Part shown: positions 1 to 48,136 of the stretch, in pieces
How the letters are laid out: the number at the start of each line of letters is the position of its first letter
How positions within the stretch are numbered: the first letter of the stretch is position 1
Virus record (IMG/VR): IMGVR_UViG_3300035183_000848
Coordinates: 1-53,266 of that record
Origin: a virus
DNA: 53,266 bases
Strand: one strand, 5' to 3'
Notes under the pieces: model-generated
Seen by the model: only the letters and a program-made list of their open reading frames with translations
Database searches by the model: none
Told to the model about the DNA's origin: nothing
Program-made: the position numbers and the translations under genes

Positions 1-127
1 TCTTTGTAGCTAAATAACATTTAGACCTCTTTTTGTTACTAAACACTTACCATGATAACGGCTATCTCAGCCATTTGCTTGGGCCCGTTATCGACATTGC
101 ATCAGCATTGAATTGAATTGAAGGCCT
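1..127. repeat. Left copy of 127-bp terminal direct repeat (circular contig overlap)
   Basis: These bases are identical to 53140-53266 at the other end. The repeat includes the last codons of the large terminase gene and the start of the methyltransferase gene, so both genes are continuous across the join. A perfect repeat of exactly 127 bases matches the largest odd k-mer used by common de Bruijn assemblers, so it most likely marks a circular assembly and not a physical terminal repeat. Confidence 0.95.
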
Positions 128-1537
128 TGTTGACAATTGAGCTATTGCCTGGGTTGTTGCGTCGACTTGATCATCATGTAGAGCGCCTGGGAATGTGCAG
201 AGCTCCTCGATGTAGTCTCCCACCCACGGTGCTATGCTCGGGTCTGGGATAGAGACGTTTCCAGACTCAAAGCTTGGTGTGATTGCCTCGGCGCGCGCCA
301 CCTTGCTTCCCCTTGGTTTGATTGGGATTATTCCAGCAACTTCAATCCTCATCGCGGCAATGAGAGCCGGTCCGTTTGCCGTGTCCTCAATCCACTTCGC
401 GTTGGGGTGCCACTTGGCGCACAGCGCTTTGAACGCAGTCTTTTGCTCATTGAATCCCATGCGCCCACGAATTTGGTCCAATAGGTAGAACATGCCCTTC
501 TTTCTTCCCCAAACTTGGAATACGGCATAGTCGTTTTTGGCTCCATCCTTGAAAGTGAGGTCCCCCGATATGCCAATGAAGTCTAGATCGGCCGGTTGTT
601 CTACGTGGAACTTAAACCATGGCCTCTTGAAGATGGCACCCTCTGCCGGAGCTGGCCTTTGCTGCAATTGCCCAGCCGAGGCCATTGATCCCAGTATCGT
701 CTTGAATTCTTCTATTTCTTTTTTGCCAAAGCGCTCTGGCCAAAGGGGCTCTCCAGGCTCTTCGCGTGGGTCAGACCACCCAGTGGAGACTACTTGGCAT
801 TTCCTCTCTGGCTCATACTCAGCCGGAAGCATCAAATGCTCCCAATTTCCCTTGTTCAAAACATGCTGTGAGAGGTCCATCTGATGGAGTCTTTGCATGA
901 TTATAATGCGTGAAACGGTCTTTGGGTCATTGACACGCGTGGAAAATTCTTGGTCATACCAATCCAAGACCGATTGCCTAACGTTGTCTGACTCTGTCTC
1001 CATTGGTGAGTGTGGGTCGTCCACGACCAAGGTGTCTGCACCTTCACCGATGACCGATCCACCAACCGAAGCCGCCATTCTGAATCCCTTTTTGTTGTTT
1101 TCAAACTTCACCTTCTCGTTTTGGTCGTCCGAAATATTCCAAGCAATCTTGAATGTTTCCCGATACCAACCAGACAAGACCAAGGCTCTGACCTTAATTG
1201 AGTCCCGCTTTGAGAGCGAATAAGAATGCGAGGCGTAGATAAACTTATGCCCAGGTTTTTGGGTCCAGACCCAGGCCGGGAACGCCACCGACACGATCGT
1301 TGACTTTGCATGCCGTGGGGGGATGTTGATCAATAGGTTTTTTATCTGCCCCTTGTTTACCGCCTCGAGGTGCTCGCATATCGCGTCTATGTGGAAGCCT
1401 GGGACGAATGGGTGGTTTGGCTCAATGATTGGCCAAGCCAGTTGCAAGAACGATGACAGCGATGAACCCGCCTTGTAAAGCTTCTCCTCAAGCACCAGTT
1501 GCTCAAGCTCTTTGATCTCTACATCGCTCAATGCCAT
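62..1537 (-). CDS. terL: Terminase large subunit (packaging ATPase and nuclease)
   Basis: Motor that translocates DNA into the prohead and cuts the concatemer. The 491-residue length is normal for the family. The ATPase half carries a Walker A-like loop IPPRHAKST at about residues 72-80 and a Walker B strand TLVVDDPH at about 169-176. The C-terminal RNase H-fold nuclease starts near GISGDLTFKDG (about 325) and contains a late acidic pair in HDDQVDATTQA. A GAGG motif lies 7 bases before the ATG. It follows the small subunit gene by 17 bases, the usual order. The stop is TAG, which shows that TAG is read as a stop in this phage. Confidence 0.97.
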   Translation of the reverse strand: MALSDVEIKELEQLVLEEKLYKAGSSLSSFLQLAWPIIEPNHPFVPGFHIDAICEHLEAVNKGQIKNLLINIPPRHAKSTIVSVAFPAWVWTQKPGHKFIYASHSYSLSKRDSIKVRALVLSGWYRETFKIAWNISDDQNEKVKFENNKKGFRMAASVGGSVIGEGADTLVVDDPHSPMETESDNVRQSVLDWYDQEFSTRVNDPKTVSRIIIMQRLHQMDLSQHVLNKGNWEHLMLPAEYEPERKCQVVSTGWSDPREEPGEPLWPERFGKKEIEEFKTILGSMASAGQLQQRPAPAEGAIFKRPWFKFHVEQPADLDFIGISGDLTFKDGAKNDYAVFQVWGRKKGMFYLLDQIRGRMGFNEQKTAFKALCAKWHPNAKWIEDTANGPALIAAMRIEVAGIIPIKPRGSKVARAEAITPSFESGNVSIPDPSIAPWVGDYIEELCTFPGALHDDQVDATTQAIAQLSTRPSIQFNADAMSITGPSKWLR

Positions 1538-3935: not shown

Positions 3936-4946
3936 TTATTCTACCCACTCAATAATTAAGTAACCGTCTGAGCCTTTTCCGCCTGTTCCGCCGTTGCCAC
4001 CGCTTCCTCCACCCAAGGCAGATACGAAAATTCCAGCTCCTCCTCCTCCGCCACCGCCGCCGCCTCCTCCACCCATTCCGTTGGTTCCGTCCGCTCCATT
4101 GGATCCAACTGTTCCATCTCCACCCTTTGCCACCGCACTACCATTTCCTCCAGCTCCACCATTTCCGCCGCCGCCGCCGCCTGGGGTCAGTGTTCCTATG
4201 ATAACATCACCGTAACCAGCGACTCCTCCTCCGCCACCACCTCCACCGCCGCCTCTGTTTGTTGCGTGGATTCCACCCGAAGCCCCTGTGCCGGCAGTTG
4301 GGTTGAACGTTGATCCAAAGGCCGTGCTACCTGGGGATACCCCGGAGTTTGAACCGCTAGCGCCATCTGCCGCTCCTCCTGTTGAAGTTCCACCATTTCC
4401 GCCGTTGCCTCCCGCAGATGGGTTTGCTCCTCCTAGCTGTCCATAGCTAACTCCAGCAGTGCCTCCGCTAATTCCGCCAGTTCCCCCAACCCCACTGCTT
4501 GTTCCCTTGGAACCAAAGGATCCTCCACCTCCAGTGGACGTTCCGGTAACTGCCCTTGAAAAAGTAATTAATGATCCAAAAGTTGTGTTCCCGCCAAAGT
4601 TACCGCTGTTTCCTGCAGTTCCGTCCGCTCCTGATGAGGCCGCTGGAACTCCTCCTATTCCCCCAGAGCCCCCTGTTCCGCCAGCTCCAATCACAATGGA
4701 ATAAGATGTCCCTGGAGTGACGGTGACAAATTGCCGATTTAACCCAGCTCCGCCTCCGCCTCCACCGCCCTTTCCACCGCCGCCGCCAGAACCAGTGGCT
4801 CCAAATCCAACATCTCCTGAGCCGCCTCCTCCACCTCCACCGCCGCCTTGAGATCCAGGTCGTCCCCAAACAACAACTTGGGTAACACCTGCTGGACAAA
4901 CCCAGGTTCCTGAACTGCTAAACACTTGCCTTGTTAATCTAGCCAT
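3936..4946 (-). CDS. Glycine-rich adhesin or fibre-tip protein
   Basis: A 336-residue protein starting MARLTRQVFSSSGTWVCPAG, followed by about 290 residues dominated by glycine (runs of 5 to 12) with serine, threonine and short hydrophobic insertions. It ends in SDGYLIIEWVE. The opening FxSSGTWxxPAGVT..VxVxGxGGGGGGG is shared by many phage and bacterial glycine-rich proteins. Polyglycine-II sandwich domains of this composition form the receptor-binding tips of the gp38 adhesins of some T-even phages. There is no signal peptide, unlike the two genes just upstream. The Gly-codon repeats produce long spurious ORFs on both strands here. Confidence 0.8.
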   Translation of the reverse strand: MARLTRQVFSSSGTWVCPAGVTQVVVWGRPGSQGGGGGGGGGSGDVGFGATGSGGGGGKGGGGGGGAGLNRQFVTVTPGTSYSIVIGAGGTGGSGGIGGVPAASSGADGTAGNSGNFGGNTTFGSLITFSRAVTGTSTGGGGSFGSKGTSSGVGGTGGISGGTAGVSYGQLGGANPSAGGNGGNGGTSTGGAADGASGSNSGVSPGSTAFGSTFNPTAGTGASGGIHATNRGGGGGGGGGGVAGYGDVIIGTLTPGGGGGGNGGAGGNGSAVAKGGDGTVGSNGADGTNGMGGGGGGGGGGGGAGIFVSALGGGSGGNGGTGGKGSDGYLIIEWVE

Positions 4947-4955: not shown

Positions 4956-5474
4956 TCAATTTACAAACCACCAGTCGGTGCAATCTGAAAAAACGTGCCA
5001 GGCACCGTAGTTAGTCAGCAATGTCCTATTCGAGGACAAGCCCTCTATTCTTTCACTGGCGTGCCTTGCCAAGGTGACGTTGTTGGTTTGAAGGTTGCCC
5101 GAGATATCCTTCAGCCAAAGCTCGCGCCCACAAGTTGGGGTTGGCAAGGTCACCGTGATCGCCCCGCTTGGGTTCATCAATATTATAAAGTCTGTCGTTG
5201 TCGTGTCCACAGTAAGGTTGCCTGTAATGGTCCTCGTCGTGACATTAAGCCCACCATTTATCGTGTGGATTGCGGTGCTGGAGCTGTTCCCAATGGTGGC
5301 CTTTGAAGCTGCATTGCTTGCTATGTTGGTGTCGCCAGTGATGGTTTTTGTACCTGACCCCAAGACTTGGTTTTGGAGAGAAATAACCCCGGGAGCTGTT
5401 GCTGATGTAGGACCCCAACCTGCATGGGCATTTAAGCAGCTTAGGATAGCAAAAAAAATCGTGGCGATTTTCAT
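4956..5474 (-). CDS. Secreted fibre-like protein with signal peptide
   Basis: A 172-residue protein starting MKIATIFFAILSCLNAHA, a good Sec signal peptide with an AHA cleavage site. A fibre-like repetitive stretch follows (TKTITGDTNIASNAASKATIGNSSS, written here only in part) and then a compact C-terminal tip ending W-x-V-F-S-D-C-T-D-W-W-F-V-N, similar to the trimeric tips of phage fibres. I chose the ATG at 5474, which overlaps the upstream stop as ATGA; an in-frame GTG lies 15 bases upstream. Why a fibre-like protein should be exported is discussed in the findings. Confidence 0.8.
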   Translation of the reverse strand: MKIATIFFAILSCLNAHAGWGPTSATAPGVISLQNQVLGSGTKTITGDTNIASNAASKATIGNSSSTAIHTINGGLNVTTRTITGNLTVDTTTTDFIILMNPSGAITVTLPTPTCGRELWLKDISGNLQTNNVTLARHASERIEGLSSNRTLLTNYGAWHVFSDCTDWWFVN

Positions 5475-7078
5475 TGTCTCAACACCCATTGTACGTCAAT
5501 TAATTGCGCTGCCGAGGAACAATATACCGAAATACTTGCCCCTCCTGGGATATAGCCAGTGTCCCTTCCGGGCTCGATCAACATCCCAACGCTAGATGAA
5601 GCTGTTGTTCCTAGTGCCCATCTACAGTTTGCTGTATTGGTCGATTCAGACTCAAGGATAAAACCCGTCGCATTCGCTGGAGCAGTGATAGTTGAGGCAG
5701 AAGTTCCAACTGTAGCATTACTTGTAGCTCCGTTGGTATTCGCAGGCATTGCCGTGTTGGGTGACAATGCCACCACTGCTGCAGTGTCGGTTGTTGCAGC
5801 CGCAGTGGAGCTCGCTTTGATTGCAAGCTGGTTTGTTGGGGTTGTGGCGTCGGCTAACTTTGCTGCGTTGGCTAGGTAAATTGAGTTTGGGTTTACCGAG
5901 CTTGTTACTTGGACCACCGCCGTACCGGTCATCGCCGCGGTAGATCTAATCCTAAATTTCTGGAACCCCACGACGTTTGCCGCCCCTGTAAAGTTCGCCG
6001 TAAATGTTGAAACGGTATAAGAAGTTCCTGATTGGTGGATCCCCTGAACTGTCCAGTTGGAACCATCGGGGCTTGCCTCTGAAACTAGCGTTCCCGTCCA
6101 GGTTCCCGTTACAATCACCCTTATCGTTTCTTGCGACGCAAGGTTGAAGGTTGCAGCAGAGTTTGCAGTTGGAGTTCCGCTGATATAAATTTGACCATTG
6201 GCCACGGTCGTTGAAGTCGAAGAAGTGTCTTGAGTCGTTATATTTTGATTGGCTGGAGTATTGTCTTGAACCCCTGTAGATATACTGGTGACCCATGGAC
6301 TTGTTCCTTGCGTCACGCTTGTCGTTGGCGCACTATCAACATTTACGTGGAGGTTTGATCCCGTGCTTTGTACAACTGTGAAATTTCCGCTCCCTGCGTT
6401 GGCGGTCACAGTCCCAGAAACTGCCACTGAATCAGAGCCTGACGATAAGTTCCAGTTTCGGCTAGTGAGCCAAGGTGAAGTCCCTTGAGTTACGCTAAGG
6501 CTTGAAGGGAAGTTTGAAACACTGACGCTATCAGTTAAGTTAGATAGATTCCATGTTCGACCAGTTGTCCAAGAACCTGATTGTGTTGCAGAAACAGCTC
6601 CAGAATCCACTACGGTGTGTAAATTTGTTCCGGTTGATTGACCCACTGTAAAGGTTCCTGTACCAGCATTTGCTGTAACTGTGCCCGTCACTACTTGAGT
6701 CGCCGGGAAGTTTCCAACATTCACTGAGTCACTAGAGCTTGAGAGGTTCCAAGTTCTCCCTAATGACCACGCTCCACCTTGGTAAGCCGTCACTGAATCC
6801 GTTCCAACTCCCAAAGTCCAATTTCTGTCTCTAGGGTCGATGACGCTGCCACCAACGATTAATTGATCGGAAAGGGGCGATGCCGGGGAAGAAGAAACGG
6901 TTGCTGAGATTGAGTTCAGTACATCGACATTTAGAGATCTATTTCCCCCAATAACAGTTGAGGTTAATGGGTTTCCAGCGCCGTCTTGAAGCTTTGCGTT
7001 AACAGTGCCGAGTGGAGGAGTGTCCGCACGTGCAATGGTGGCAATCATTAAGAGGCAAAAAAATAACATTGTCCGCAT
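5471..7078 (-). CDS. Large secreted repeat fibre-like protein with signal peptide
   Basis: A 535-residue protein with an N-terminal Sec signal (MRTMLFFCLLMIATIARA, cleavage after ARA). Residues of about 80 to 290 hold at least three imperfect repeats built on the units xxWNLSxxxDSVxVxNFP, GTVTANAGxGxFTVxQSTGxNLHxxVDS and SVTQGTSPW. Then comes a Ser/Thr-rich beta region and a compact C-terminal domain containing two Cys (TANCRWALG and ISVYCSS). The pattern is that of a beta-structured fibre. It is coupled by ATGA to the next secreted protein, so the two are probably made together. Confidence 0.82.
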   Translation of the reverse strand: MRTMLFFCLLMIATIARADTPPLGTVNAKLQDGAGNPLTSTVIGGNRSLNVDVLNSISATVSSSPASPLSDQLIVGGSVIDPRDRNWTLGVGTDSVTAYQGGAWSLGRTWNLSSSSDSVNVGNFPATQVVTGTVTANAGTGTFTVGQSTGTNLHTVVDSGAVSATQSGSWTTGRTWNLSNLTDSVSVSNFPSSLSVTQGTSPWLTSRNWNLSSGSDSVAVSGTVTANAGSGNFTVVQSTGSNLHVNVDSAPTTSVTQGTSPWVTSISTGVQDNTPANQNITTQDTSSTSTTVANGQIYISGTPTANSAATFNLASQETIRVIVTGTWTGTLVSEASPDGSNWTVQGIHQSGTSYTVSTFTANFTGAANVVGFQKFRIRSTAAMTGTAVVQVTSSVNPNSIYLANAAKLADATTPTNQLAIKASSTAAATTDTAAVVALSPNTAMPANTNGATSNATVGTSASTITAPANATGFILESESTNTANCRWALGTTASSSVGMLIEPGRDTGYIPGGASISVYCSSAAQLIDVQWVLRQ

Positions 7079-7133: not shown

Positions 7134-8105
7134 TCAAACTTCTTGATTGTTTAAGATCCAGTTTAGGACTGATTTGGGGTCTGGGAGGAAATCCTCAATC
7201 CTTGCCCCTTTTGGGAAAGTATCTACCCGATTTTCATCAAGATTGTTTGGACAATAGTTAAAAAGCCCCCAAGGTTCCCCCTTAGTTAGGTTCTTCATGT
7301 TCCATCCAAGCCTCCCCCCACGCCAGTGCAAAAGGTGGTCAGGGTGCCTTACTGTGGAGAAAAAAAGGATTTTTCCATAGCCTGCTGCCCCAAGGTGGAT
7401 GGGGCTAGAGTCATTTGTCACCAAGGTTCCAGCATATTTGCATATCCATGCAAATTCCTTGACGTTGGTAATACCTCTTATATCAAAACAACGATCGGGG
7501 TTTATCTCGACAGTGTCATTTCCAATAATGACTGGGATTAATGGGGTTTCTCTCAAGATGAGTTCAATGAGGTTATTCCACCAAGTGGCTGGGATTGTCC
7601 TAGACGGCCAAGTCTTCCCAGGGTGGATAACTACCGTCTTCTCCCTGTCGCTAATTTTATAGGGATCAAAGTTAATTTTAGAAAAAAGGTTTGTCATCTC
7701 TGTAGTCAACAATATTTCTTTATAACCATTTGGGAGCTGCATCCTCAGGGCCGAAATACTTGCGAAGTCAACTGGGTGAATCAAATTTGCGTTAAAATAT
7801 TGGTTCCTTAAGTTGCCTTGGCCATAGGTATAGAGAATGTAGTGTTTGTTGGGCTGGATTTCATCAACCGTGCGGTAAACGTTCTTAAACCCAATGTGTT
7901 TAAACAGCTCTGGAGTGTCACAGAGGATTGATATTTCACAATTCTTGAAGGTGTCCTTTGCATAAATCAACGTGGGTACTGCGCAAACTCTATCCCCCAG
8001 TCCGCCCGACACAACGAATAAAAGATTTTTTTCCACCCCATTTCCTATCGCCTTTGCTATTTGGATGGCTGGGATGTCGGACTCATGGACGTCAAATACT
8101 CCCAT
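7134..8105 (-). CDS. Glycosyltransferase family 9 (heptosyltransferase-like)
   Basis: A 323-residue protein with the GT-B layout of family 9. An N-terminal nucleotide-fold strand and glycine loop (LLFVVSGGLGDRVCAVPTL) is followed by the C-terminal sugar-nucleotide half VVIHPGKTWPSRTIP near residue 165 and LVTNDSSPIHLGAAGYG near 235. Family 9 enzymes typically transfer heptose or similar sugars to lipopolysaccharide core; in a phage the acceptor could be host surface glycan, phage DNA or a virion protein. It is one of two adjacent GT9 genes. Start ATG lies 2 bases after the stop of an AP2-like remnant. Confidence 0.88.
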   Translation of the reverse strand: MGVFDVHESDIPAIQIAKAIGNGVEKNLLFVVSGGLGDRVCAVPTLIYAKDTFKNCEISILCDTPELFKHIGFKNVYRTVDEIQPNKHYILYTYGQGNLRNQYFNANLIHPVDFASISALRMQLPNGYKEILLTTEMTNLFSKINFDPYKISDREKTVVIHPGKTWPSRTIPATWWNNLIELILRETPLIPVIIGNDTVEINPDRCFDIRGITNVKEFAWICKYAGTLVTNDSSPIHLGAAGYGKILFFSTVRHPDHLLHWRGGRLGWNMKNLTKGEPWGLFNYCPNNLDENRVDTFPKGARIEDFLPDPKSVLNWILNNQEV

Positions 8106-20339: not shown

Positions 20340-21262
20340 TTACCTTTTTGAGCACCAAACCATAATTGTCTGAAGACGCTGGGAGTTCGATATCTTGCTT
20401 CCTTACCAGCTTTAGCCCATCAAACTTGTGGAAGTCAACGTGGTGGTGCCACCTGTCATACCTCCACTTCAGGTGGGCGACATCGGGGTGGACCTTCACC
20501 AGCATCTTGCTCTTGTCGAGCGTTCCATTCCTTGCGTATTTTTCACCGCGTTTCTTCATTTGTCCATCTTCAGAGAGGTAAAGCTCCTGGGCGTTTCCGC
20601 CATTCATCGTCTGGGTTGTGACCTTGTTTTGGAGAAACGCATAGAACAGAATCGTGCACCAGCCCGCCTTCAGCATGTCAATGGAAAGTATTGTGTCCTC
20701 GTTGTACCTTCCCCTCCACCTCATGGGAACTTCATTTCTGATGAGGTTGCAGGAATAGATCCTGGTGTTCAGCTGGAAGGGCCTGAGCCTCAAGTTCGAT
20801 GGGCAAACATGTAGTATTGGGGTCCTGCCATTGAGACGTTCTCATACCTTAATACAAAGTCCTCCATGCGGCGAAGCATGCACCGCTCAAGACCCTCACC
20901 TTGCAGTGGTTGTTCAGCCTATAGAAACCCCTGATGTTGTCATCCATGATCCAGTGGAACTTCGCACCGTTTGAAATTGAGTGGTCCCACGCAAAATTCC
21001 TCGCTGGTCCAGACCCCGTTGACTTTGAAAGCCCAAGGTCATCGCAAAACTCATACTTTGACTTGTAGGACATATCGAGGGGTATCACGGTCGTGAGTAA
21101 GTTCATCTTCCTCACCGCTTCCTGGTACGCTTCAACCTCCTGGGGCTCAACGATTATGTTGTGTTCAACACCCATCTCCGTGATGGTACCTGCTCGTCAT
21201 CATGTACTGGGATCTCCCCTTGCTTGGGATATAGAGGGAAATTTTGGCTTATTCTTCTTCAT
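20326..21262 (-). pseudogene. TET-associated-type glycosyltransferase broken by frameshifts
   Basis: Pieces in three frames assemble into one protein: MKKNKPKF, YIPSKGRSQYMMTSRY, then MGVEHNIIVEPQEVEAYQ to FHWIMDDNIRGFYRLN, then MEDFVLRYENVSMAGPQYYM, and PSNLRLRPFQLNTRIYSCNL, RWRGRYNEDTILSIDMLKAG to the stop. This pattern (PSKGR, EPQE, WIMDDN, RYEN, NTR-x-Y-S, WRGRYNEDT) is that of phage glycosyltransferases associated with TET/JBP-type base modification. Frame changes lie near 21240, 21186, 20866 and 20802, each at a short homopolymer. Substitutions look few, so the damage is recent or a sequencing artefact. Confidence 0.7.
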
Positions 21263-21983
21263 ACCTCTCGGAGGCCAAGTCATTTTTTTCCTTTTCTGGG
21301 AACCAAATTGACTTAGTTTTTTCAGTGTATTTTTGGCCAATCCTACGGAAGAACTCCTCCACCGCTTGGTCATCTTCAAAACGGACGTTTATGATGCGGT
21401 GGGCCTCCACCCCATCGTGTGAGAACTCTGGCATTCTAACCCATTCTTTTGATGGGTCTTCAACGACCTTGCCTTCACCACCAACCTTTGCGGTAAATGT
21501 AACCTGTTTGGTCTCGGCTGTGTCTGGGAAGTACTCCATCTGGAATGAATTGATGTCAAAGTCAGGGATCACAAATGAGGACGAAATATCCTTGAAATCA
21601 AATTCAGCGGCATGCATGTACTCGAGAAGCCCTATTTGGGTAACCTGACCATATTGGCTCACGTCCTGGAGAACACGGCGCTTGGCTTCCTTCAGGTTTT
21701 TGGCGTGTATCTTGACGTATGGGATGTCTGGGACAATCGCACCCTCCTCACGCATCATCTTTAGGGCCAACAGCCTTTGGTGCCCACCAATGATGATTAG
21801 CTTCTTGTCGCTGTGGTTTTCCCAAACGAATATTGGGAATGCAAACCCTGTTTGAAGTATCTCACGTTTCAGCCTCTTGTAGGCCTCGTCTGGGAGCGCC
21901 TTCAGCCTGCCCTGGAAGTTTAGGAATGAGTCCAGCGGGGCCCGCTCTTTCACGTCACAGGCAATGCGTATCTCGGTTGGCAT
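21249..21983 (-). CDS. ParB-like domain protein
   Basis: A 244-residue protein starting MPTEIRIACDVKERAPLDSF. The region LKREILQTGFAFPIFVWENH then KLIIIGGHQRLLALKMM is the ParB/sulfiredoxin-like fold with the G-G-H-Q-R phosphate-binding motif. A C-terminal domain follows (NVRFEDDQAVEEFFRRIGQK), often seen in phage ParB-like proteins. In phages these proteins act as nucleases or in base-modification systems, and this gene overlaps the broken TET-associated glycosyltransferase gene. The start is set by GGAG about 11 bases upstream of the ATG; it is the first gene of the leftward early operon. Confidence 0.8.
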   Translation of the reverse strand: MPTEIRIACDVKERAPLDSFLNFQGRLKALPDEAYKRLKREILQTGFAFPIFVWENHSDKKLIIIGGHQRLLALKMMREEGAIVPDIPYVKIHAKNLKEAKRRVLQDVSQYGQVTQIGLLEYMHAAEFDFKDISSSFVIPDFDINSFQMEYFPDTAETKQVTFTAKVGGEGKVVEDPSKEWVRMPEFSHDGVEAHRIINVRFEDDQAVEEFFRRIGQKYTEKTKSIWFPEKEKNDLASERYEEE

Positions 21984-22293
21984 ATATACAAAGCTCCAAT
22001 CAAATTGGTAAATTTTACAATTCTTGGGATGGGTTGAACCAAAACCCAACTATAGGGAAAGTTACCACCAAACAATTTGGTCGATCAAGCGCTTTCAACC
22101 TTAACGAAACCATTAACTTATCACATATCAAAAACCATGCTCCGCAATATATACGACATTGATAAGTTATTGATAATAAAAGGGAAATAATTACGAGTAT
22201 TTATAAGGGTATTATTTTTTTATTGCTTTAGTAATTATGTAAGGTATTATTTAATTAATAACAGTTAAGGTTTCATAGGGGTTGGAGGGAATT
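21984..22293. promoter_or_regulatory. Divergent control region between the two early transcription units
   Basis: About 310 AT-rich bases between the leftward ParB-like gene and the rightward operon. It contains the plus-strand promoter listed at 22223-22250 and several TTGATAAGTTATTGATAATA-type stretches (22158-22180). I find no gene. Leftward promoter elements are likely but I cannot fix them by eye. Confidence 0.55.
22223..22250 (+). promoter_or_regulatory. Sigma70-like promoter for the rightward operon
   Basis: TTGCTT (22223-22228), a 16-base spacer and TATTAT (22245-22250). It lies 44 bases before the start of the first mini-ORF and is the best plus-strand -35/-10 pair in the divergent region. 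Confidence 0.5.
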
Positions 22294-24480: not shown

Positions 24481-24945
24481 GTGACACTGCCGAGAGTCGT
24501 TAAAAATCATGAAGATGGAAAGACTTTCGAAAAAATCCTCAAGAACCAGGGAATGCGCTGTGGCTTGCTTGTGCTCAAGAACAACCTCAGTGCGAAGTAC
24601 ATCCAGGGCGGACGCGTGCTGCTCGAAAAATCAAACTTAGACTTCATGATCGCCAACCAAAGAGGGGTTGTCGGTTTCTTTGACGCCAAGTCATTCGACG
24701 GAGATTCATTCAAATTTTCTGAGATTAGTCCCCACCAGTTAGAGCGCGCCAAGCTCTACAATGACTATGAGATACCTGCTGGGTTCGTGGTATTCTTCAG
24801 GGAGCTGAAGAAGGTTTTTTTCTATAGTGGGAAAGCCATGATCACCAAGGGACCAAACAATTCATTTTCCCCTGAGGACGGTGTGTTGCTTGGGAATTTA
24901 TGGCAGTTCAACCTAAGCCTAATTCTTCTGAATGGTGGCGTTTAG
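24481..24945 (+). CDS. RecU-like Holliday-junction resolvase
   Basis: A 154-residue protein starting with GTG directly after the upstream TAA. GKTFEKILKNQGMR, LDFMIANQRGVVGFFDAKSF and FKFSEISPHQLERAKLY followed by AGFVVFFRELKKVFFY reproduce RecU: an early Glu, an acidic residue before the central strand, D-A-K as the (D/E)xK catalytic pair, and H-Q at the start of the next helix. RecU proteins cut Holliday junctions; here it would process recombination intermediates before packaging. Its 3' end overlaps the converging minus-strand gene by 27 bases. Confidence 0.8.
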   Translation: MTLPRVVKNHEDGKTFEKILKNQGMRCGLLVLKNNLSAKYIQGGRVLLEKSNLDFMIANQRGVVGFFDAKSFDGDSFKFSEISPHQLERAKLYNDYEIPAGFVVFFRELKKVFFYSGKAMITKGPNNSFSPEDGVLLGNLWQFNLSLILLNGGV

Positions 24946-25200
24946 CAACTTCTTTAAATCCTGGTCAAAGAAAGATATCCAGCGCTTCGACTCTGGGTTG
25001 CAAAACGAGATGAAGTCAAACTTTCCGTTATTTAGCCTGCGGTAAAATCCATAGTTTTGGAGCTCAGGCTCCTTCTTGCAAAGCTCTTCGGGCAGTCCGT
25101 TGTTCAGCCACGCAGCTGCCTCTATTTCCTGCCTGCTTGGGCAACCAACTAATAAGAGCGCGATTGGAACCAATAGGACCAAAAAAATCTTAAGTGACAT
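24919..25200 (-). CDS. Small lipoprotein
   Basis: A 93-residue protein with N-terminus MSLKIFLVLLVPIALLLVGC, a classic lipobox LLVGC. The mature part includes two further Cys (ELCKKEP, SFCNPES) that may form a disulphide. It starts one base after the stop of the preceding membrane protein. Outer-membrane lipoproteins in this position of phage genomes are often o-spanins, but the sequence is not proline-rich, so that role is only possible. Confidence 0.7.
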   Translation of the reverse strand: MSLKIFLVLLVPIALLLVGCPSRQEIEAAAWLNNGLPEELCKKEPELQNYGFYRRLNNGKFDFISFCNPESKRWISFFDQDLKKLLNATIQKN

Positions 25201-27131: not shown

Positions 27132-29345
27132 TTATTTTGGACCCATGCAAATAATATAATAGTTAGAGTCTACAAATCCAGTGCCAATTGTTGAAGTACC
27201 AGGTATGACGTCCGTTGAACTAATCGAGGTACTAAAGATAGTTTTATCCCCTAGTACAGGAGAGTAAACACACACAGGAGTTGCGCTGAAATATCCTGTA
27301 GCAAAGGTTATATCGCATCTACCTACTGCCGAACGACTGATAGACGCTATCCATGAGCCGCTTTGAGAGCTGACGGCACAAGTTCCGTTGTTTGTTATAA
27401 ATGCGCGCCCGATCTGCTCTTGTCCGCTTGAGTTTGTCGCAACCGAGCCAGTCAAGATTGGAGCTGGCAAGCTTTGGCTGATGTTGATGATTTTCCAGGT
27501 CGAATTCGCTGTTGAGCTTGCATAGTTCGTCACGACGTTGCTGTTGGTGTTTAAGCCACGAATTTTAACCGTCTGAGACGCCAAGCTCGTGACGTTTAGA
27601 ACACCAACCAAAGTAGCAGATGAATAAGTCGTGGCATTAGCAGTGAAGTTCCCGGAAGCATCAAGCACGTTGTTAGAGCCATCAGTCAGCGCCACCTGCG
27701 TGCTGTTTGTAGTTCCGCCGTTGCCAAACATGCCGGTTGCAATAATCAAATATCTCCCAGTGGTTTTTGGAGTGAACGTCAATCCAGCGCCGTTGGCGAC
27801 AGTTGGGGTTGTAAAATTTACGTTGGTCAACTCAGTGACTGCGCAGCTAGCAGGGGTACTGAAGTCTGCATAGCTTGTGCTGGTCAATGTTGGATTGGAA
27901 GCGCAACCTGAAATATACCCACTCCATGAAGTTGATAGAATATTGGGAGTTAGCGCCAAGCTTGTTTGAGAAGGGTAGTAATAAACCCTAATTACGCCAG
28001 GGTGTGAGTTGGTTCCCCGAAGTCTGGCAGTACCACCAGAATCGACCTTGCCCCGAATAGAGAACGTCACGTTGCTCTGAGCACTGGTATAAGAAATTGA
28101 TTGGTTGATCCCAGGAGAATAAATTACGCCTCCTGATGCGCTCTGAAGCTGAGACAATTCCCTGGCGGTATTGGTTCCATCCCAGAATTGATAGTAAGAG
28201 CCAAAACCTTGGGTCAAGGAGTCAATTGTACCTTGATACTCAAGCTTGTACTCCCCAGGGGGAAGGCTTGCGAATTTCACTGCTGGAATGTTGGTTGATG
28301 GAGCTTGTGCTGCTCCAAACGCAGTGTAGGTACAACCACTTTGTGTTGAGAAATCTGTCAAAGTGGTCGATGTCGTGGACCAAGCTGAAGAACAACCGTT
28401 GATTACAACTCCACCCACCAAGAAGGCTTGGCTTACATTTGTGAGGTTTGCCGCAGATCCTAGATAGCAATTGTCTAGGTAAGCGGTTTTGGCTGAGCCG
28501 CTAGTCAAAACCAATTTCACACTACCAGAGGAGGGAAATATAAAGTTTAGCGGAAAATAACCATATGTTGAAGCTCCAAGTCCCGTGATCGTCGTACTTG
28601 CAATGGTGTTGGTTCCATCGGTGACGCTTAAGGTAAAGTCAGTTGCCGCGGTTTGAATATAGCAAGACACTAGTCCATTTTGGCCATAGAGCCCAGAGGG
28701 AATGGCAATTAAATTGCTAGAAAGCGTTTGTGACCCTGCTGATGTAACGAAGGATGCGGACTTTGAGCCGAATCCTACGTTAGCTGCAGTTGTGGTTGTG
28801 GTGAAAGTTCCCCCGGAGTTTGTCCAGTTAGTGGTTCCGGACTCGAACCCTGGGTTGTAGCTGCTCAACATGTTGAAGCCGCCCCCGCTTCCGCTACCAC
28901 CCAATTGGCCAGTGGTGATGGCGTTTGAGAGCTGGTCATTGATGGAGTTTGCAGTGACATAAATTTTTGTATCATTGATGAGCTGGCTCTTTTGACCACC
29001 GAAGGTAATGGTGTCGCCTGTTGCGGTGCCAGTTGCGTTTGCGCTCATTTGGATTTGACCGGCCGAGCAAGTTCCTGGCAGTCCAGCTATCGTAGTCCCT
29101 GATGGAATGTTTGCTGAAGTTGTTGTGTCGTAGACATATAACCCTGTCGCAAGCCCCGTGGTCGATCCAGGCGAAGAGATACAAGCCGAACCACTCGTGA
29201 GGTTGCCTGTTGTGGTCAATACCGCCGCGGTGATGTCGGTGAGGCTTTTGACATCTTCATTTTGAATTGAGGCAAGTCCAGCCAAAAGAGGCGAGGCTGC
29301 TAGCATGATTGATAAGAAGGTAAAGAGCAAGGTTAGGTTTTTCAT
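27132..29345 (-). CDS. Large secreted fibre-like protein with signal peptide
   Basis: 737 residues from the ATG at 29345, preceded by AAGGGGAAAATA; the longer ORF to 29375 has no site. Signal peptide MKNLTLLFTFLSIMLAASPL with cleavage near LLAG. Domains in order: a short N-terminal fibre segment with a TSANIPSGTTIAGLPG module; a beta-sandwich GFESGTTNWTNSGG domain; two related beta domains beginning VVINGCSSAWSTTSTTLTDF and YISGCASNPTLTSTSYADF; and a C-terminal tip starting EQIGRAFITNNGTCAVSSQS and ending YYIICMGPK. The Cys pairs suit an oxidising periplasmic or extracellular location. Confidence 0.82.
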   Translation of the reverse strand: MKNLTLLFTFLSIMLAASPLLAGLASIQNEDVKSLTDITAAVLTTTGNLTSGSACISSPGSTTGLATGLYVYDTTTSANIPSGTTIAGLPGTCSAGQIQMSANATGTATGDTITFGGQKSQLINDTKIYVTANSINDQLSNAITTGQLGGSGSGGGFNMLSSYNPGFESGTTNWTNSGGTFTTTTTAANVGFGSKSASFVTSAGSQTLSSNLIAIPSGLYGQNGLVSCYIQTAATDFTLSVTDGTNTIASTTITGLGASTYGYFPLNFIFPSSGSVKLVLTSGSAKTAYLDNCYLGSAANLTNVSQAFLVGGVVINGCSSAWSTTSTTLTDFSTQSGCTYTAFGAAQAPSTNIPAVKFASLPPGEYKLEYQGTIDSLTQGFGSYYQFWDGTNTARELSQLQSASGGVIYSPGINQSISYTSAQSNVTFSIRGKVDSGGTARLRGTNSHPGVIRVYYYPSQTSLALTPNILSTSWSGYISGCASNPTLTSTSYADFSTPASCAVTELTNVNFTTPTVANGAGLTFTPKTTGRYLIIATGMFGNGGTTNSTQVALTDGSNNVLDASGNFTANATTYSSATLVGVLNVTSLASQTVKIRGLNTNSNVVTNYASSTANSTWKIINISQSLPAPILTGSVATNSSGQEQIGRAFITNNGTCAVSSQSGSWIASISRSAVGRCDITFATGYFSATPVCVYSPVLGDKTIFSTSISSTDVIPGTSTIGTGFVDSNYYIICMGPK

Positions 29346-29355: not shown

Positions 29356-29799
29356 TTAATACTGACTATAAACACAATATAAATCCTGTCCAGTGGCTGG
29401 CGCAGTAGAAAACGTCAATGTACTGCTAGAAATAGTATAATCCAATCCAGCGCCCTGTTTTAACAATTTTCCATCCAAATAGCACGCCACACCAACTCCG
29501 GCGCCCGGTGAGGTCGCCAGCGTAAATGTTGTCAAAGACCCATTCGGGTAGGGCGTGACCTTAGACTGGATGGTCTGGGTGGCCACTGGGAGCTGATTGA
29601 AAGTATTGTTTGACCCACTAATCGTCTTGTTCTGCAGAGTCAACGTATTGGTGTCGCTCGCGAAGTTCGATCCAGTGGAGGGGACAGAAATCGTGCTTCC
29701 GCCAGTTGAGTTCTGGATGCTGTCGATTTGCTTGGTCGTGGTGGATGAACCCCAAGCAGAAAGCGAGAGCAAGGTGCAAAGTATCGCAAGATTTTTCAT
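29356..29799 (-). CDS. Secreted short fibre-like protein with signal peptide
   Basis: A 147-residue protein with signal MKNLAILCTLLSLSAWG. The next 50 residues (KQIDSIQNSTGGSTISVPST and TLTLQNKTISGSNNTFNQLP) are nearly the same as in the 30744-29809 product. The C-terminal 65 residues form the beta-module TTFTLATSPGAGVGVACYLD...YTISSSTLTFSTAPA, also found twice in the virion fibre at 30757-32850. It is a small chimera of two modules used elsewhere in this genome. AAGGGA precedes the ATG. Confidence 0.8.
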   Translation of the reverse strand: MKNLAILCTLLSLSAWGSSTTTKQIDSIQNSTGGSTISVPSTGSNFASDTNTLTLQNKTISGSNNTFNQLPVATQTIQSKVTPYPNGSLTTFTLATSPGAGVGVACYLDGKLLKQGAGLDYTISSSTLTFSTAPATGQDLYCVYSQY

Positions 29800-29808: not shown

Positions 29809-30744
29809 TTAGTTGGATCGGCTAACTTCATTCCAGAATCCATTGCCATCGCACAAAAGCGTCAATACAGCGTTTAGGCCAGAAGTCCATGGGCCGTTTA
29901 AATTTAGCTTTGATCCCGACAAGGAAGCCTCGTCTTGAAGCTTAACCAAATTGGTTGCTGACTCACCAACGATTCTGGTGATTTGACCTGCCGCTGTGCA
30001 AGCAGTGATGCTTGGAGTTGCCGTTACTGTTGTCGTTCCGCTTGAGCTAGCCTGGATAAAAGCAATGTTTGCATAGGAGATACCAGTCAAGGTAATGCCT
30101 CCGCCTGCCGTGATGGACAACGGAGAAGCTTGGCTGCCATTTAAAGCTGGAGCTCCAACCCCCAGGGCTGAGCTGGTCCAAGTGGATCCGTTGGAGGTCA
30201 AAACATTTCCGCTGGTCCCCGGAGCAACGAGGCTTACCGCCGAAGTTCCATTCCCCACAACAACCGAACCAGCCGTTAGAGAACTTGCCCCGGTACCACC
30301 ATTTGCCACTCCCAATTGGCCGCTTACTGCAGCGGATTGGTTTAGCTGCAAAGCACCAACCGTTGGAACGCCTGAAGCTCCGGCTTGGAAAACTTGGTAC
30401 TGGCTACCTGCAGAAGTTGCTCCGATAGCTGATGTGCCGTTGCCATAGAGCATTCCGTTTGTGGTTAGCGAAGATGATCCGGTGCCGCCGTTTGAAACTG
30501 AAAGTTGACCACTAGAAATTGCGCTCGCGGGAACGTTTGAGAAAGTGTTGCTTGCCCCTGAAATGGTCTTGTTTTGAAGGGTGATGGTGTTGGTGTCCGA
30601 AACAAAGGTTGATCCAGTCGAGGGAACCGAGATTGCGCTCCCACCGGTTGAGTTCTGGATGCTGTCTACTTGCTTCAAAGTGGTGCTTGACCCAAAAGCC
30701 AAACTTGAAGCCAATACCAAGACGATTGAAAAGATTGCTCTCAT
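29809..30744 (-). CDS. Secreted fibre-like protein sharing its tip with the virion fibre
   Basis: A 311-residue protein with signal MRAIFSIVLVLASSLAFG. Then the KQVDSIQNSTGGSAISVPST/LQNKTISGASNTFSNVP segment shared with the 29356-29799 product; then two LSVSNGGTGSSSLTTNGMLY-type fibre repeats. The C-terminal about 105 residues (NGSQASPLSITAGGGITLTG ... LNLNGPWTSG ... GNGFWNEVSRSN) align with the last 105 residues of the virion fibre (HGSKASPIVLTPSSG ... LDLNGPISLT ... GSVWSENNRRA). The ATG has the same 16-base upstream sequence as the gene at 29345. Confidence 0.85.
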   Translation of the reverse strand: MRAIFSIVLVLASSLAFGSSTTLKQVDSIQNSTGGSAISVPSTGSTFVSDTNTITLQNKTISGASNTFSNVPASAISSGQLSVSNGGTGSSSLTTNGMLYGNGTSAIGATSAGSQYQVFQAGASGVPTVGALQLNQSAAVSGQLGVANGGTGASSLTAGSVVVGNGTSAVSLVAPGTSGNVLTSNGSTWTSSALGVGAPALNGSQASPLSITAGGGITLTGISYANIAFIQASSSGTTTVTATPSITACTAAGQITRIVGESATNLVKLQDEASLSGSKLNLNGPWTSGLNAVLTLLCDGNGFWNEVSRSN

Positions 30745-30756: not shown

Positions 30757-32850
30757 TTAAGCCCTTCTATTGTTTTCACTCCACACCGAGCCATCCCACA
30801 TCAACTCAATCGATTGGTTGTCAGTGAGGCTAATTGGCCCGTTGAGATCCAGCCCGTTGCCATCTGCAAGGGTGTAGTAATTTGTTGGGTCTGCGCCCTT
30901 CAAGGTTAACCTTTGTCCAATGGTTGTGCCAGCTGCAATTTGTGGAGTTGCAGTGATTGGAGTAACTCCACCAGAAGTTGGAGCTATCCACCAAACCTGG
31001 TCGTTTGAGTTTGCAGGAGTCAACCCAGAGCTTGGAGTCAAGACAATTGGAGACGCCTTGCTGCCATGGGCATCGATCATCCCACCACCGCCGCCTCCAG
31101 AAGATGAAAGTATGACATGGTCCCCCATGTCAGTTAGGGTCATATTTGTGCCAGGCACAAGCCCCTTGAGCTGGGCAATTCCGCTCATCACGCCTGCAAA
31201 AAGTCCAATTCCGCCATCAAGGTTCACCATGCCGGCGATGCCGCCAGAGCCCCCGCCACTGCCTCCGCCAACGGGGCTAAAGTAATCACAATAGATGGAT
31301 GATCCTACAGGGAGCGCACTTGACAAGACGATGTAGCTCACTGTGCCTTGGGTTAAAGAAAACTGACTTGGCAAAATCTTTAATCCATCAATATAAACCG
31401 AAACTCCCGACTTGCTGAACGGTGACCCACCAAGTCTGAACGTCAGGTTGTCTCCAGTGTTGACTGGGGTCTCTTGGTTCATGGCGAGGTAGCCCTGGTT
31501 TGCAAGCACGTACTCAAACAGAATTTGAGAAGCCAACGCAGGGGCAGAGTTAAAGGTAATTGTTTGACCAGAGAGTGACCACTCGGAGTCTGGAATTATT
31601 CTGCCATTGATTGAAACTCGAATTGACTGGGCTGAAAGCGGCAAATTTAACAAGTCAAAAGCAGTCGTTGTGCCATTGCCTGTGCTTGGAGGGTCCGTGG
31701 CCAGTATTGGAAATGAGGTTGGCCCAGAGTTTGATGGTGTTCCAGAGACGAGAAAGTGTGTGGTGGTTACCGCAACTCCAACTGGAACTATTTTTTCCCC
31801 AGCTCCAGTAGGCGCCGGAGTGACGATACCGCCAGGTGTCGAAGGGTCGGCATAATACTCGGCGCCCGCAACTAAAGATGTTAGTGAATAAAATCCATTA
31901 TACAAGACCTCAGCTACTCCTCCACTTGAGACGTCAGAGATAACCATCCCTGCAAACGTCCCACGGACTGCCTGGTTTGCTGGGGAGCAATCAAGTGGAT
32001 AAACCCTACCTGCGGTGCGGCCTGAGTCGGTGGGGTTGCCAGGAGAAATATAGACAACTTGTCCAGCGGTTAAGTTTTGTCCAGCCACCACCTCGTAAAC
32101 CGTGAAATAACCCGATCCCAACAGGGGCTTGTACTCGCCGTCTCTTAAGATTATCTGTGACGTGTTGACGCCAAGGTAAACAACTGGTCCAGACCTGCGA
32201 GCGAAAATTATTTGGTTCACGCCAGGCACGAATGAAGCGCTTGATGCAGTTTGGACAGTGATTGGCCCTGCTGCGGAGAACACAAAAGTTGCACCGTTTT
32301 GCGTCGACGTTGCATTGTTGCTGATCGTGACGCTGTTGGAGCCCACCGCCGTTACCGTTGTGTTTGCTGGAATTCCAGGGCCTGTGACGTTCATGCCGAC
32401 TGTAATGCCATTGATAAAGGTCAATGCACTGATGCTGTTCGAGGAGTTTACGGTATTGCCTTGAGCCACAAGCGGGCTGTTTAAGTTGACATACGCCAAT
32501 TCACCATCGCTCAAAGTCACTGAACCCGCGTTGACCTGGTTTGAAGAATCGGGTACAGAGGGGATGACGATATTGAAAGCTGAGCTCCAAGATAGGTCAC
32601 CACTTGTGGCCGAGAACGCCCATGTTCCGCCATTTAGCAAGCGCATGGCTTGGTCTGGCATGCCTCCAGTGATCAATGGATCCAAGTATTGAATCCACTG
32701 GTCCGCAAGCCAAAAAAGCCAGTTCATATACTCCGGAGGGGGGGCTTGGCCTGATTGCCATCCTGCCAAAGCATAATTGGCTGGTGGTTGCTGTACTTTA
32801 GACGGATTGCCGTCTGTCCAATTGAGATAAGCCTGCGGGCGATTTACCAT
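30757..32850 (-). CDS. Virion tail fibre protein
   Basis: A 697-residue protein with no signal peptide. The N-terminus WTDGNPSKVQQPPANYALAG, QAPPPEYMNWLFWLADQWIQ is the usual baseplate-attachment segment of fibres encoded after DUF2612 proteins. Middle modules: a GMNVTGPGIPANTTVTAVGS repeat type near residue 150, then two copies of the module TFRL...VYIDGLKILPSQFSL and its relative IRVSINGRIIPDSEWSL. A Gly/Ser linker follows, then the C-terminal tip shared with the secreted 311-residue protein. It probably contacts the host receptor. Confidence 0.85.
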   Translation of the reverse strand: MVNRPQAYLNWTDGNPSKVQQPPANYALAGWQSGQAPPPEYMNWLFWLADQWIQYLDPLITGGMPDQAMRLLNGGTWAFSATSGDLSWSSAFNIVIPSVPDSSNQVNAGSVTLSDGELAYVNLNSPLVAQGNTVNSSNSISALTFINGITVGMNVTGPGIPANTTVTAVGSNSVTISNNATSTQNGATFVFSAAGPITVQTASSASFVPGVNQIIFARRSGPVVYLGVNTSQIILRDGEYKPLLGSGYFTVYEVVAGQNLTAGQVVYISPGNPTDSGRTAGRVYPLDCSPANQAVRGTFAGMVISDVSSGGVAEVLYNGFYSLTSLVAGAEYYADPSTPGGIVTPAPTGAGEKIVPVGVAVTTTHFLVSGTPSNSGPTSFPILATDPPSTGNGTTTAFDLLNLPLSAQSIRVSINGRIIPDSEWSLSGQTITFNSAPALASQILFEYVLANQGYLAMNQETPVNTGDNLTFRLGGSPFSKSGVSVYIDGLKILPSQFSLTQGTVSYIVLSSALPVGSSIYCDYFSPVGGGSGGGSGGIAGMVNLDGGIGLFAGVMSGIAQLKGLVPGTNMTLTDMGDHVILSSSGGGGGGMIDAHGSKASPIVLTPSSGLTPANSNDQVWWIAPTSGGVTPITATPQIAAGTTIGQRLTLKGADPTNYYTLADGNGLDLNGPISLTDNQSIELMWDGSVWSENNRRA

Positions 32851-33470: not shown

Positions 33471-35633
33471 CTAAACATAGCTTACAGCAACGTTAAACGC
33501 TTCAAATATAGGTTCCTCTTCGGGCTGCATTTGTAAGTTAACATTTGTTGTAGGATTCGGCATCCTATCAAAATAAAGAGTATAGGAAACAATCCCTGGA
33601 ATCGAATTGAAAGCTCCGATTAGTCCGTTTGAACCAAACCCTATGATCAGGCCACCAATTCCAACCTCGTTCCCAATCGATACGATGTCTTTTTGGATGT
33701 CTCCAATCGAGAGGGGGTTGAACTTCGCCTTTGGGTTGAGCCCAGAGTTGGAGTCGCCTGGAATATTGTAGAGGTCGGTGACCATGGAAATTGAAACATA
33801 GATGGGAACTTGAGTTGGCCTTGAAAATCCAATGTTGTAAATATTCCCGTATTGGTCAACCGATTGAATGACGGTGCTGCCATAGGGCTGGATTCCAGCG
33901 GGTCCAGAAGCCAAGATGGTGTCCGCAACTGTTTGGTCATCCCCACCTGCAACCACGATCTCAAAAGATTTTCCAGGTCTGCCAAAGGCAACGGATATAG
34001 TGCTGCCAGTGGTGTTGTTTGAAACCGCAATTAAACCCTGGGGCTGCCCACCAAAAGAACCGTTGAAATCTACCGTAAACCCAGCAGTGACAGATCCTGA
34101 AACCACGACGTTGCTATAGCTGCCGCCCAACGCTCGGATTGCGGTCTGCATTTGTCCGTTTGTCACGTTGTAGGGCAAGGAAGAAGTCATATTCCCATTT
34201 ACCACAAGCTTGAAGCTCCCGCTTCCAGGAGGCACGTTGAAAGTGACGACTTGAAGTGCGGCTTCATTGACGTTTTGAAAACCCACTACCGCGGTGACTC
34301 CGCTTATGACTGAAACCTTGGAAATAATTGCCGCTAGTGGTCCGTTGGCATTCGCATCCAAGTTGGCCTGGCGTCTTTCCAGGGCCTCAGTGTCGTTTTC
34401 GACGTTGGTGCCAGTGACGCAGTCTAGTTGGTTGGTGACTCCTGTCCACCCACTAATTGGAGTGACAATAGAGGTTAGTGTGCCTGCACCAACGAAATTT
34501 GGACCCGTTTGGGCGCAAGTCGCAGAACCCACTCCTTGGGCTGGTGCACCTTGGGCTGAGTTGATGACGGCAACGTTGGTGACGCTCGTGCCGTTCATCA
34601 AGGTATTTGTTGGAACTGTGATCAATGCTTGGGGTTGTGATCCAGATGATGGTTGGCTTGTGTAGGGAGTTCCTACACCAAAGTTAAAGTTATATCCAGC
34701 CGCTGCGCTAGTTACGGTCAAGTCAGTGTAGGGGTATTTGGAAATTGAAGAGTCATAGAGATTGTTGATGTCGGCTTGGATTGAATCAACACTAGTAATT
34801 GTGACTCCTAAAGTGTTGCCCCCGATGGTCACCAACGGGTTGGTGACACTTCCCCAGGTGATTTGGAACCCTGAAGCAAAAGAGCCTGACACGGTGGCAC
34901 CAGAGTACCCACTCAAGGCTTGAATTGCAGATTGAACTTGGGCTGCATTGGCATTGTAGGGAATGTTTGCAGTTGTGAGTGTGCTTCCCGCCGCCGACAA
35001 GGATAGCGTAAAATTTCCAGCCACTGGGACGGAACTAAATGATAGCTGGCTTATTGCAGGTAGGGCATTCCAAGGGATAAGTCCCGTTGTCATTTGAAAT
35101 CCGCTTTGACCCACTATCGAAAGTGAATAGTTTCCAGAGTCTGGCGTATTGCTTTGGATAAAAGTTTGAATCGCATTCACCGCAGCCTGGATGGTGATGT
35201 CCGCGTCTATGGTGAATTGAACCGGCGGTGAAGATTGGTCTTGGATGATTGAATTTTGGGGGACGATAGTACCTGGAGTTCCCAAAGCGACAAGTCCATA
35301 AAGCGTGATGCCATTTGCCTGGGTTACTGGGTTGAGGTTGGTCCTAGTGGCAGAGGCCTGCTTTCTCTTTAGGTTGTTTAGCGCCAAAATATTGTCAACC
35401 GAAGTTCCCTCGGCACCCGATGGGTATCTCGAAGAATAAAGTGTCTGTCCCAACTGCCACAACAGCGCAAAGTCACCAGACAAAATCCCGATGATTTGCC
35501 CAAAGTTTGAGGATGGAGCAAGGTTGATGTTGTTTCCAAAGACTGTCCTGAATTGGCTCTCGAGCTGAGATATAATGTCTTGCTGCGATGGGGCAACAAA
35601 ACCAGTAGAAGTTATTCCGTATTGAGTGCTCAT
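33471..35633 (-). CDS. Baseplate J-like wedge protein with inserted beta modules
   Basis: A 720-residue protein, longer than the roughly 350-480 residues usual for J proteins. N-terminus QDIISQLESQFRTVFGNNIN, VDNILALNNLKRKQASATRT and C-terminal IVVAGGDDQTVADTILASGP, YGNIYNIGFSRPTQVPIYVS are typical of the J family. Two repeats are inserted at about 204-280 and 463-545, each with FxLxxxG...(I/L)PYNxxxxQxQxAIxAL followed by VSGS; a partial third may lie at 165-197. The ATG overlaps the gp25-like stop. Confidence 0.88.
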   Translation of the reverse strand: MSTQYGITSTGFVAPSQQDIISQLESQFRTVFGNNINLAPSSNFGQIIGILSGDFALLWQLGQTLYSSRYPSGAEGTSVDNILALNNLKRKQASATRTNLNPVTQANGITLYGLVALGTPGTIVPQNSIIQDQSSPPVQFTIDADITIQAAVNAIQTFIQSNTPDSGNYSLSIVGQSGFQMTTGLIPWNALPAISQLSFSSVPVAGNFTLSLSAAGSTLTTANIPYNANAAQVQSAIQALSGYSGATVSGSFASGFQITWGSVTNPLVTIGGNTLGVTITSVDSIQADINNLYDSSISKYPYTDLTVTSAAAGYNFNFGVGTPYTSQPSSGSQPQALITVPTNTLMNGTSVTNVAVINSAQGAPAQGVGSATCAQTGPNFVGAGTLTSIVTPISGWTGVTNQLDCVTGTNVENDTEALERRQANLDANANGPLAAIISKVSVISGVTAVVGFQNVNEAALQVVTFNVPPGSGSFKLVVNGNMTSSLPYNVTNGQMQTAIRALGGSYSNVVVSGSVTAGFTVDFNGSFGGQPQGLIAVSNNTTGSTISVAFGRPGKSFEIVVAGGDDQTVADTILASGPAGIQPYGSTVIQSVDQYGNIYNIGFSRPTQVPIYVSISMVTDLYNIPGDSNSGLNPKAKFNPLSIGDIQKDIVSIGNEVGIGGLIIGFGSNGLIGAFNSIPGIVSYTLYFDRMPNPTTNVNLQMQPEEEPIFEAFNVAVSYV

Positions 35634-43669: not shown

Positions 43670-44068
43670 TCATGGGGTTGCTGCGTAAGGACCAACGTCG
43701 ATCCTCATTATTCTGGCCCTCGAGAACGATCCCCAGTTCTCAACTGATTGGACCTGGTACTCGCCTCCTAGCCGCGACAACCTGTCGTTAACTATTATTG
43801 AGGTTGGATTGGTCTCAATCTCCAATCCCTCGTCGATTATTATAGAGGAGTTGTTGTAATATATCCAGTATTGCTCCTTGAAACGATCACCCTCTGGAAC
43901 GAGCAATAAATCCCTTCCATTTACTGGCTGAATATTTCCTTTAACCTTTAAGGTTAATAAATTTTTCTTAACTGGCTTCCCATCGACGATTATGACTTGG
44001 CCCTCTCGTGTGACCTTGAAAGTTTCGTCATGGGTTATGATTTGAGATTTTCCCTGGAGCTTGATCAT
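43670..44068 (-). CDS. Head-tail joining protein
   Basis: A 132-residue beta-rich protein (MIKLQGKSQIITHDETFKVT, GRDLLLVPEGDRFKEQYWIY and NDRLSRLGGEYQVQSVENWG). YQVQxVENWGxF resembles neck proteins of the connector region. It overlaps the preceding gene by 4 bases. The family is not firmly identified; the role is from position and composition. Confidence 0.7.
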   Translation of the reverse strand: MIKLQGKSQIITHDETFKVTREGQVIIVDGKPVKKNLLTLKVKGNIQPVNGRDLLLVPEGDRFKEQYWIYYNNSSIIIDEGLEIETNPTSIIVNDRLSRLGGEYQVQSVENWGSFSRARIMRIDVGPYAATP

Positions 44069-44577
44069 TCTACATTCACCTTGAAGGTCACAGACCTGAG
44101 CAAGAGCTCTGACTCCCTCAATGTACTGGTGTGACCAACACGCTTTCTCTTTTGTTCTTGAAGGGAGGCGATCCTTGCTTCGCTGTTTGGCTTCAATCCC
44201 GTGCCGTATGGTGGAGGCACGTTTGACTTTATCTTGTTCTGTATGAGGCTTTGAACATAGAGGCCAATTGCCTCGAGTGCCTTTTCCTTGCTCCAGCCCT
44301 TGGTCAAAATGTTCTCTATCATCTTCTCACGCATGGCGTTTATCGAAGATTCATGCTCATCGACAGTCGAACGTATGAAAGAGCGCTCTGGGATTTTTGT
44401 TGTCCCAAACTCTTGGAACAAAGCAACCTCAACCACAGAAATTTCTCCCTTGGAGTATGAGCCCGCGTCTTCGTGTATTCCAATTGATACATAGGCGCCC
44501 TTGCCTGAGAAGTTTTTCTTAAGCTTTTCCCAATTTGGGTTTTTCTTTTCAATAATTTTAGCAGAAGCCCTTATCAT
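44065..44577 (-). CDS. HK97 gp10-like/virion morphogenesis protein
   Basis: About 170 residues from the ATG at 44577, which overlaps the upstream stop as ATGA; the ORF extends 12 codons further without support. VSIGIHEDAGSYSKGEISVV, EVALFQEFGTTKIPERSFIR and AIGLYVQSLIQNKIKSNVPP form the pattern of neck or tail-completion proteins (E-F-G-T-x-x-I-P-x-R-x-F and the A-x-x-x-x-x-x-I-x-x-x-I helix). Confidence 0.82.
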   Translation of the reverse strand: MIRASAKIIEKKNPNWEKLKKNFSGKGAYVSIGIHEDAGSYSKGEISVVEVALFQEFGTTKIPERSFIRSTVDEHESSINAMREKMIENILTKGWSKEKALEAIGLYVQSLIQNKIKSNVPPPYGTGLKPNSEARIASLQEQKRKRVGHTSTLRESELLLRSVTFKVNVE

Positions 44578-45229: not shown

Positions 45230-45243
45230 GGATCCCTCCTTGG

Positions 45244-45516: not shown

Positions 45517-45523
45517 ACACCAA

Positions 45524-46516: not shown

Positions 46517-46529
46517 CTTTTATTTCCCC

Positions 46530-48094: not shown

Positions 48095-48136
48095 TATCGA
48101 AATGTTCCTCTATATTCAAAGAAAGAGTTTAGGAGA

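Follow-up and report, generated by a model that had tools for sequence, protein, structure and literature searches.

Why should a contractile-tailed phage encode several fibre-like proteins with Sec signal peptides (SPs), when textbooks give tail fibres as the prime example of virion proteins made in the cytoplasm? The question is raised by a stretch of DNA of 53,266 nt (henceforth the window), which spans positions 1-53,266 of one IMG/VR virus record, IMGVR_UViG_3300035183_000848. Two of the genes concerned lie near the terminase genes and are followed by a third, SP-less one:

5471..7078, minus strand: 535-aa SP-bearing fibre-like protein; predicted cleavage between MRTMLFFCLLMIATIARA and DTPP; two Cys in the mature protein
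4956..5474, minus strand: 172-aa SP-bearing fibre-like protein; predicted cleavage between MKIATIFFAILSCLNAHA and GWG; two Cys in the mature protein
3936..4946, minus strand: 336-aa glycine-rich SP-less protein, after the 172-aa gene

The first-pass annotation held that the 535- and 172-aa proteins start with good Sec SPs, that three more such proteins at 27.1-30.7 kb bring the total to five, and that SPs are unusual for phage fibres. Using a home-made heuristic score that combines n-region charge, the h-region and the -3/-1 rule, we recovered SPs on all five; the 535- and 172-aa proteins display a short basic n-region, a hydrophobic core and an A-x-A type cleavage site, and the sites of all five are of the SPase I type. 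The rarity of the trait was likewise upheld. The open-access literature searched described neither tail fibres whose Sec SP is cleaved nor phage-encoded fibres resembling the mosaic adhesive trimers (MATs) of Bdellovibrio, which is not proof of absence. By this score SPs are present in five of the eight S/T/G/N-rich genes of the window as against 2 of the 64 others (Fisher p=8e-5). Since the calls come from a heuristic predictor only, the hydrophobic N-termini might be chance features or membrane anchors rather than functional export signals. However, across the phage loci compared the SPs, although their sequences are dissimilar, keep one position throughout dozens of proteins with A-x-A type sites (27/66 S/T/G/N-rich genes vs 27/624 others, p=4e-16; as many loci were fetched using SP fibres as queries, 27/66 is not an unbiased rate), and a cysteine signature described below accompanies them, making this explanation very improbable. 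Most of the SP starts are also preceded by good ribosome sites.

The 535/172 pair is tightly packed, with the start of the 172-aa gene overlapping the stop of the 535-aa gene by 4 nt (ATGA); an in-frame ATG upstream, at 5489, would give a 177-aa product. The 172-aa protein matches phrog_31104 (4e-10; function unknown) and, weakly, phrog_9648 (tail; 0.004). For the 535-aa protein, PHROG and Pfam searches returned no family match, and a tblastn search of 50,697 isolate phages one short partial match only; it is, nevertheless, 35% identical (8e-18) to a fibre of locus L002. There, the fibre precedes a gene for an SP-bearing 133-aa protein (cleavage between MTKLIALALFLCSLNALA and FPG; two mature Cys), which is placed between the large fibre and terminase genes, roughly where the window has its 172-aa gene. 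A positional counterpart of the 535-aa gene, again with an SP followed by DTPP, is seen at 12052-13455 of L023. Directly upstream of the 535-aa gene, the product of window 7134-8105 (minus strand) shows a weak match, below the Pfam cut-off, to glycosyltransferase family 9 (heptosyltransferase), and might modify surface sugars or fibres.

Unlike this pair, the remaining three proteins, A, B and C, are encoded within the tail module, where they follow baseplate and fibre genes:

33471..35633, minus strand: wedge protein of the baseplate, encoded towards the end of the phiPLPE-like contractile-tail module that lies ahead of the array
30757..32850, minus strand: SP-less tail fibre, 697 aa, immediately upstream of the array
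29809..30744, minus strand: array protein A, 311 aa, SP-bearing; predicted cleavage between MRAIFSIVLVLASSLAFG and SSTT
29356..29799, minus strand: array protein B, 147 aa, SP-bearing; predicted cleavage between MKNLAILCTLLSLSAWG and SSTT
27132..29345, minus strand: array protein C, 737 aa from ATG, SP-bearing; predicted cleavage between MKNLTLLFTFLSIMLAASPLLA and GLASIQNED

The start of C is probably this internal ATG at 29345, which is preceded by TTAAGGGGAAAATA, and not the less well placed listed GTG at 29375 (747 aa). A shares its C-terminal tip domain with the SP-less 697-aa fibre, to which it adds a Cys pair, and the 50 N-terminal residues of its mature form with B; B in turn matches a tail fibre family (phrog_18673, 8e-5). 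C comprises an N-terminal domain (IQNEDVK..LINDTKIYVT; henceforth the N-domain) and, further on, a TNF-like domain; it has no family match in PHROG or Pfam searches. Among the 50,697 isolate phages, tblastn found no relative of C and one short partial match only of A. AlphaFold gave poor models for both A and the N-domain of C.

The tail module as a whole (sheath region, tape measure, hub, spike and wedge) resembles that of the phiPLPE-group dwarf myoviruses, among which is the Bdellovibrio phage phi1422 (PMC3391216). The genome of the window is a mosaic, as its head and packaging genes (window 62-1537 and 44065-52578) are 52-86% identical to those of L002, but its tail genes resemble those of L023 and L011. 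No tRNA or Rfam features were found in the window. A ParB-like domain is encoded at 21249-22049 (minus strand), and phi1422 also has a ParB homologue (gp42). Downstream of the fibre array, 24919-25200 (minus strand) encodes a small lipoprotein-like protein (MSLKIFLVLLVPIALLLVG followed by C) that is possibly a spanin subunit.

IMG/VR searches with proteins C and A gathered relatives of the array, whose order is an SP-less tail fibre followed by A (~250-430 aa), B (80-220 aa) and C (250-790 aa). All three of A, B and C have SPs in the window and in five other uncultured phages (L006, L007, L020, L022 and L023), each with an SP-less fibre at the position of the 697-aa one. In contrast, L008, L010, L011, L012 and L017 carry A-B-C at the same place with SPs on none; L021 is similar, one additional gene intervening. 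Both states are seen in each of two tail types: the SP-less L011 has baseplate genes in common with the window, and the SP-bearing L007 has the tail layout of the SP-less L012 and L017. The two kinds of array are alike in gene order, position, the N-domain of C and the tail-fibre-like domain of B, and differ in the SPs, in the N-domains of A and B and in their cysteines, which are fewer in the SP-less arrays; judging from gene position, the latter would encode virion proteins. Runs of SP fibre genes, three consecutive ones in L044 (3965-8884) and four in L049 (2981-8520), are found on contigs of 160 and 175 kb, respectively, indicating that the trait reaches large phages.

The N-domain of C is kept both with and without an SP. 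Predicted cleavage of the SP-bearing versions leaves its motif 2-4 residues from the N-terminus, and in the SP-less versions the motif occupies the matching place directly after the initiator Met, such that L009 (AFA/SRKIQNEDVKT, SP-bearing) and L010 (M/SRKLQNEDVKT, SP-less) have nearly equal N-termini. A translation-start artefact was ruled out for C, as the residues that separate the SP from the motif in its SP-bearing ORFs include no Met. The SPs themselves are widely divergent, which suggests that their function rather than their sequence is kept. Separately, the mature N-termini of 26/51 SP fibres, vs 5% of random 19-mers, fit a general docking-peptide motif; as this was defined post hoc, it has been set aside.

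A second correlate of the SPs is the cysteine pattern. The number of mature Cys is even in 21 of 25 Cys-containing SP fibre proteins (p=5e-4) vs 3 of 9 SP-less relatives, and Cys content is 0.89% vs 0.44% (p=0.002), these p-values being indicative only as the compared sequences are related. The tip domain of A has a Cys pair in four of six SP-bearing fibres (window, L006, L020 and L022), and none of six SP-less fibres has Cys at those positions. We also observed, at window 28896-29276, an additional stretch of ~75 aa within the C N-domain that contains two Cys; it is found also in L020, L022 and L023, all SP-bearing, and is absent from the SP-less C versions aligned.

The tip of C links these proteins to predatory bacteria, in keeping with the connection to Bdellovibrio MATs that had been proposed for the locus. 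Residues 319-463 of C (747-aa numbering) match PDB 8OKW (E=1e-9, sole hit), which is the solved TNF-like tip of the B. bacteriovorus MAT fibre Bd2734; L005 (3e-11) and L020 (3e-6) match it as well. In a PDB search that took in C, A and the 172-aa protein, neither A nor the 172-aa protein showed a MAT-type tip; A, B and the 535- and 172-aa proteins appear to differ from a Bd2734-type MAT in having other tips. Like MAT fibres, C is a long, SP-bearing, fibre-like protein, and one of its domains is homologous to the tip of Bd2734 (PMC10769870). Unlike them, it is encoded in a virus record within an array of tail genes and not by the predator, and its TNF-like domain is internal rather than terminal.

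These likenesses bear on the proposal that the proteins change the adhesins of the host, acting on the surface of the infected predator as MAT-like adhesins that alter its binding or exclude other phages. C, L005 and L020 reproduce the MAT layout of SP, fibre and MAT tip, and an SP is present in all five viral carriers of the 8OKW-type tip with an intact N-terminus (window, L005, L020, L033 and L036). At ~127 aa in four phages, the N-domain of mature C is close in length to the conserved, beta-rich domain of ~130 aa found immediately behind the SP in MATs (PMC10769870). Exported trimeric adhesins borne by phages are known from the Eib-type trimeric autotransporters encoded by prophages. Unlike these, the SP proteins of the window have no Pfam match to a C-terminal YadA-like barrel or to any other outer-membrane anchor. 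Moreover, the array is inside the tail module and is thus probably expressed late, and the N-domain of C is also found in SP-less versions. The proposal is therefore not supported so far, a virion-attached fibre fitting better with both the tail-module position of the trio and its SP-less relatives; display at the predator surface appears rather unlikely to us.

The cultured phage phi1422, isolated on B. bacteriovorus, offers a similar layout. Its gp68 (614 aa, SP, eight Cys) is directly after the SP-less tail fibre gp67, and its gp75 (170 aa) has an SP and two Cys. Both are annotated only as hypothetical and are, like the window proteins, SP-bearing and fibre-like with even Cys numbers; they differ in showing little sequence similarity to them, and in that one protein rather than three stands at the array position. 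A relative of gp68 with an SP occurs in L038, whose record number suggests a prophage in an isolate genome of IMG. No S/T/G/N-rich SP protein was found in five sisters of phi1422 from Aeromonas, Pectobacterium, Vibrio, Iodobacter and Aggregatibacter hosts, and phiPLPE gp63, an MS-confirmed virion fibre, is without an SP in the same heuristic scan. Bdellovibrio phage phi1402 also has no such protein, and thus the trait is not universal in Bdellovibrio phages. Scans of genome contigs tied no host genome to the window: the C N-domain gave no match, and the sole match to the TNF-tip alignment, L024, was a false one, a TonB-dependent receptor. The host of the window is likely to be Bdellovibrio-type. 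The arrangement recurs in a cultured Bdellovibrio phage as well as in many uncultured ones, and these viruses thus appear to export fibres that other phages retain in the cytoplasm.

Exported fibres could alternatively serve as soluble decoys that block receptors on the host envelope and debris, sparing the progeny or excluding a second phage, analogous to the lipoprotein Llp of T5. The tip domain that A shares with the SP-less 697-aa fibre, and the fact that export would come before lysis, speak for such a role. Yet, where superinfection-exclusion lipoproteins have a lipobox, the five window proteins have SPase I-type sites, with no canonical lipobox (Cys at +1) by inspection; at least three different tips per phage are more than one receptor block needs; and the crossing of the outer membrane is left unexplained. 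We hold decoys to be improbable, more so than surface display.

The reading we favour, while still giving it somewhat less than an even chance, is that the exported proteins are receptor-binding fibres that fold in the periplasm and join virions at lysis. The phage would encode a conserved set of tail-fibre-like proteins that are exported through Sec and disulphide-bonded; SPase I would remove the SP, so that mature C would begin almost directly with its conserved N-domain; the fibres would then fold in the oxidising periplasm; and lysis, mixing periplasm and cytoplasm, would allow them to attach to virions as additional receptor-binding fibres. The sequence itself displays the SPs, the array, the matched N-termini of C, the cysteine pattern and the MAT-type tip, from which export, cleavage, disulphides, docking and host are inferred. 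As the N-domain of C is common to SP-bearing and SP-less versions, whatever it binds has to be accessible to either form; once the cell has lysed, this would be the virion or an extracellular target. This reasoning, together with the tail-module position, places virion fibres ahead of both surface display and decoys. Against it, docking would have to be timed to lysis if export comes first, the N-domains of A and B are not the same in SP-bearing and SP-less arrays, and the literature searched offers no SP-cleaved tail fibre as a precedent. Compared with the tail fibres of Caudoviricetes, A, B and C have the expected tail-module position, and sequence affinities to tail fibres are seen in B (phrog_18673), in the weak tail match of the 172-aa protein and in the tip common to A and the 697-aa fibre; the SPs on all five proteins depart from the SP-less, cytoplasmic assembly of such fibres.

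The exported fibres may be a variant on both the known tail fibre and the MAT fibre. It is conceivable, if on balance doubtful, that phage fibre arrays and MATs draw on one exchanging gene pool, with predator adhesins recruited from phages or the reverse, and phage copies acting at the predator surface. Sec export of several fibres by a widespread phage group would mean that virions can mature by a new route or, failing that, that phages encode a new class of surface adhesins. The common tip domain provides a concrete lead on the origin of predatory-bacterial adhesins, and phi1422 makes fibre export testable in culture.
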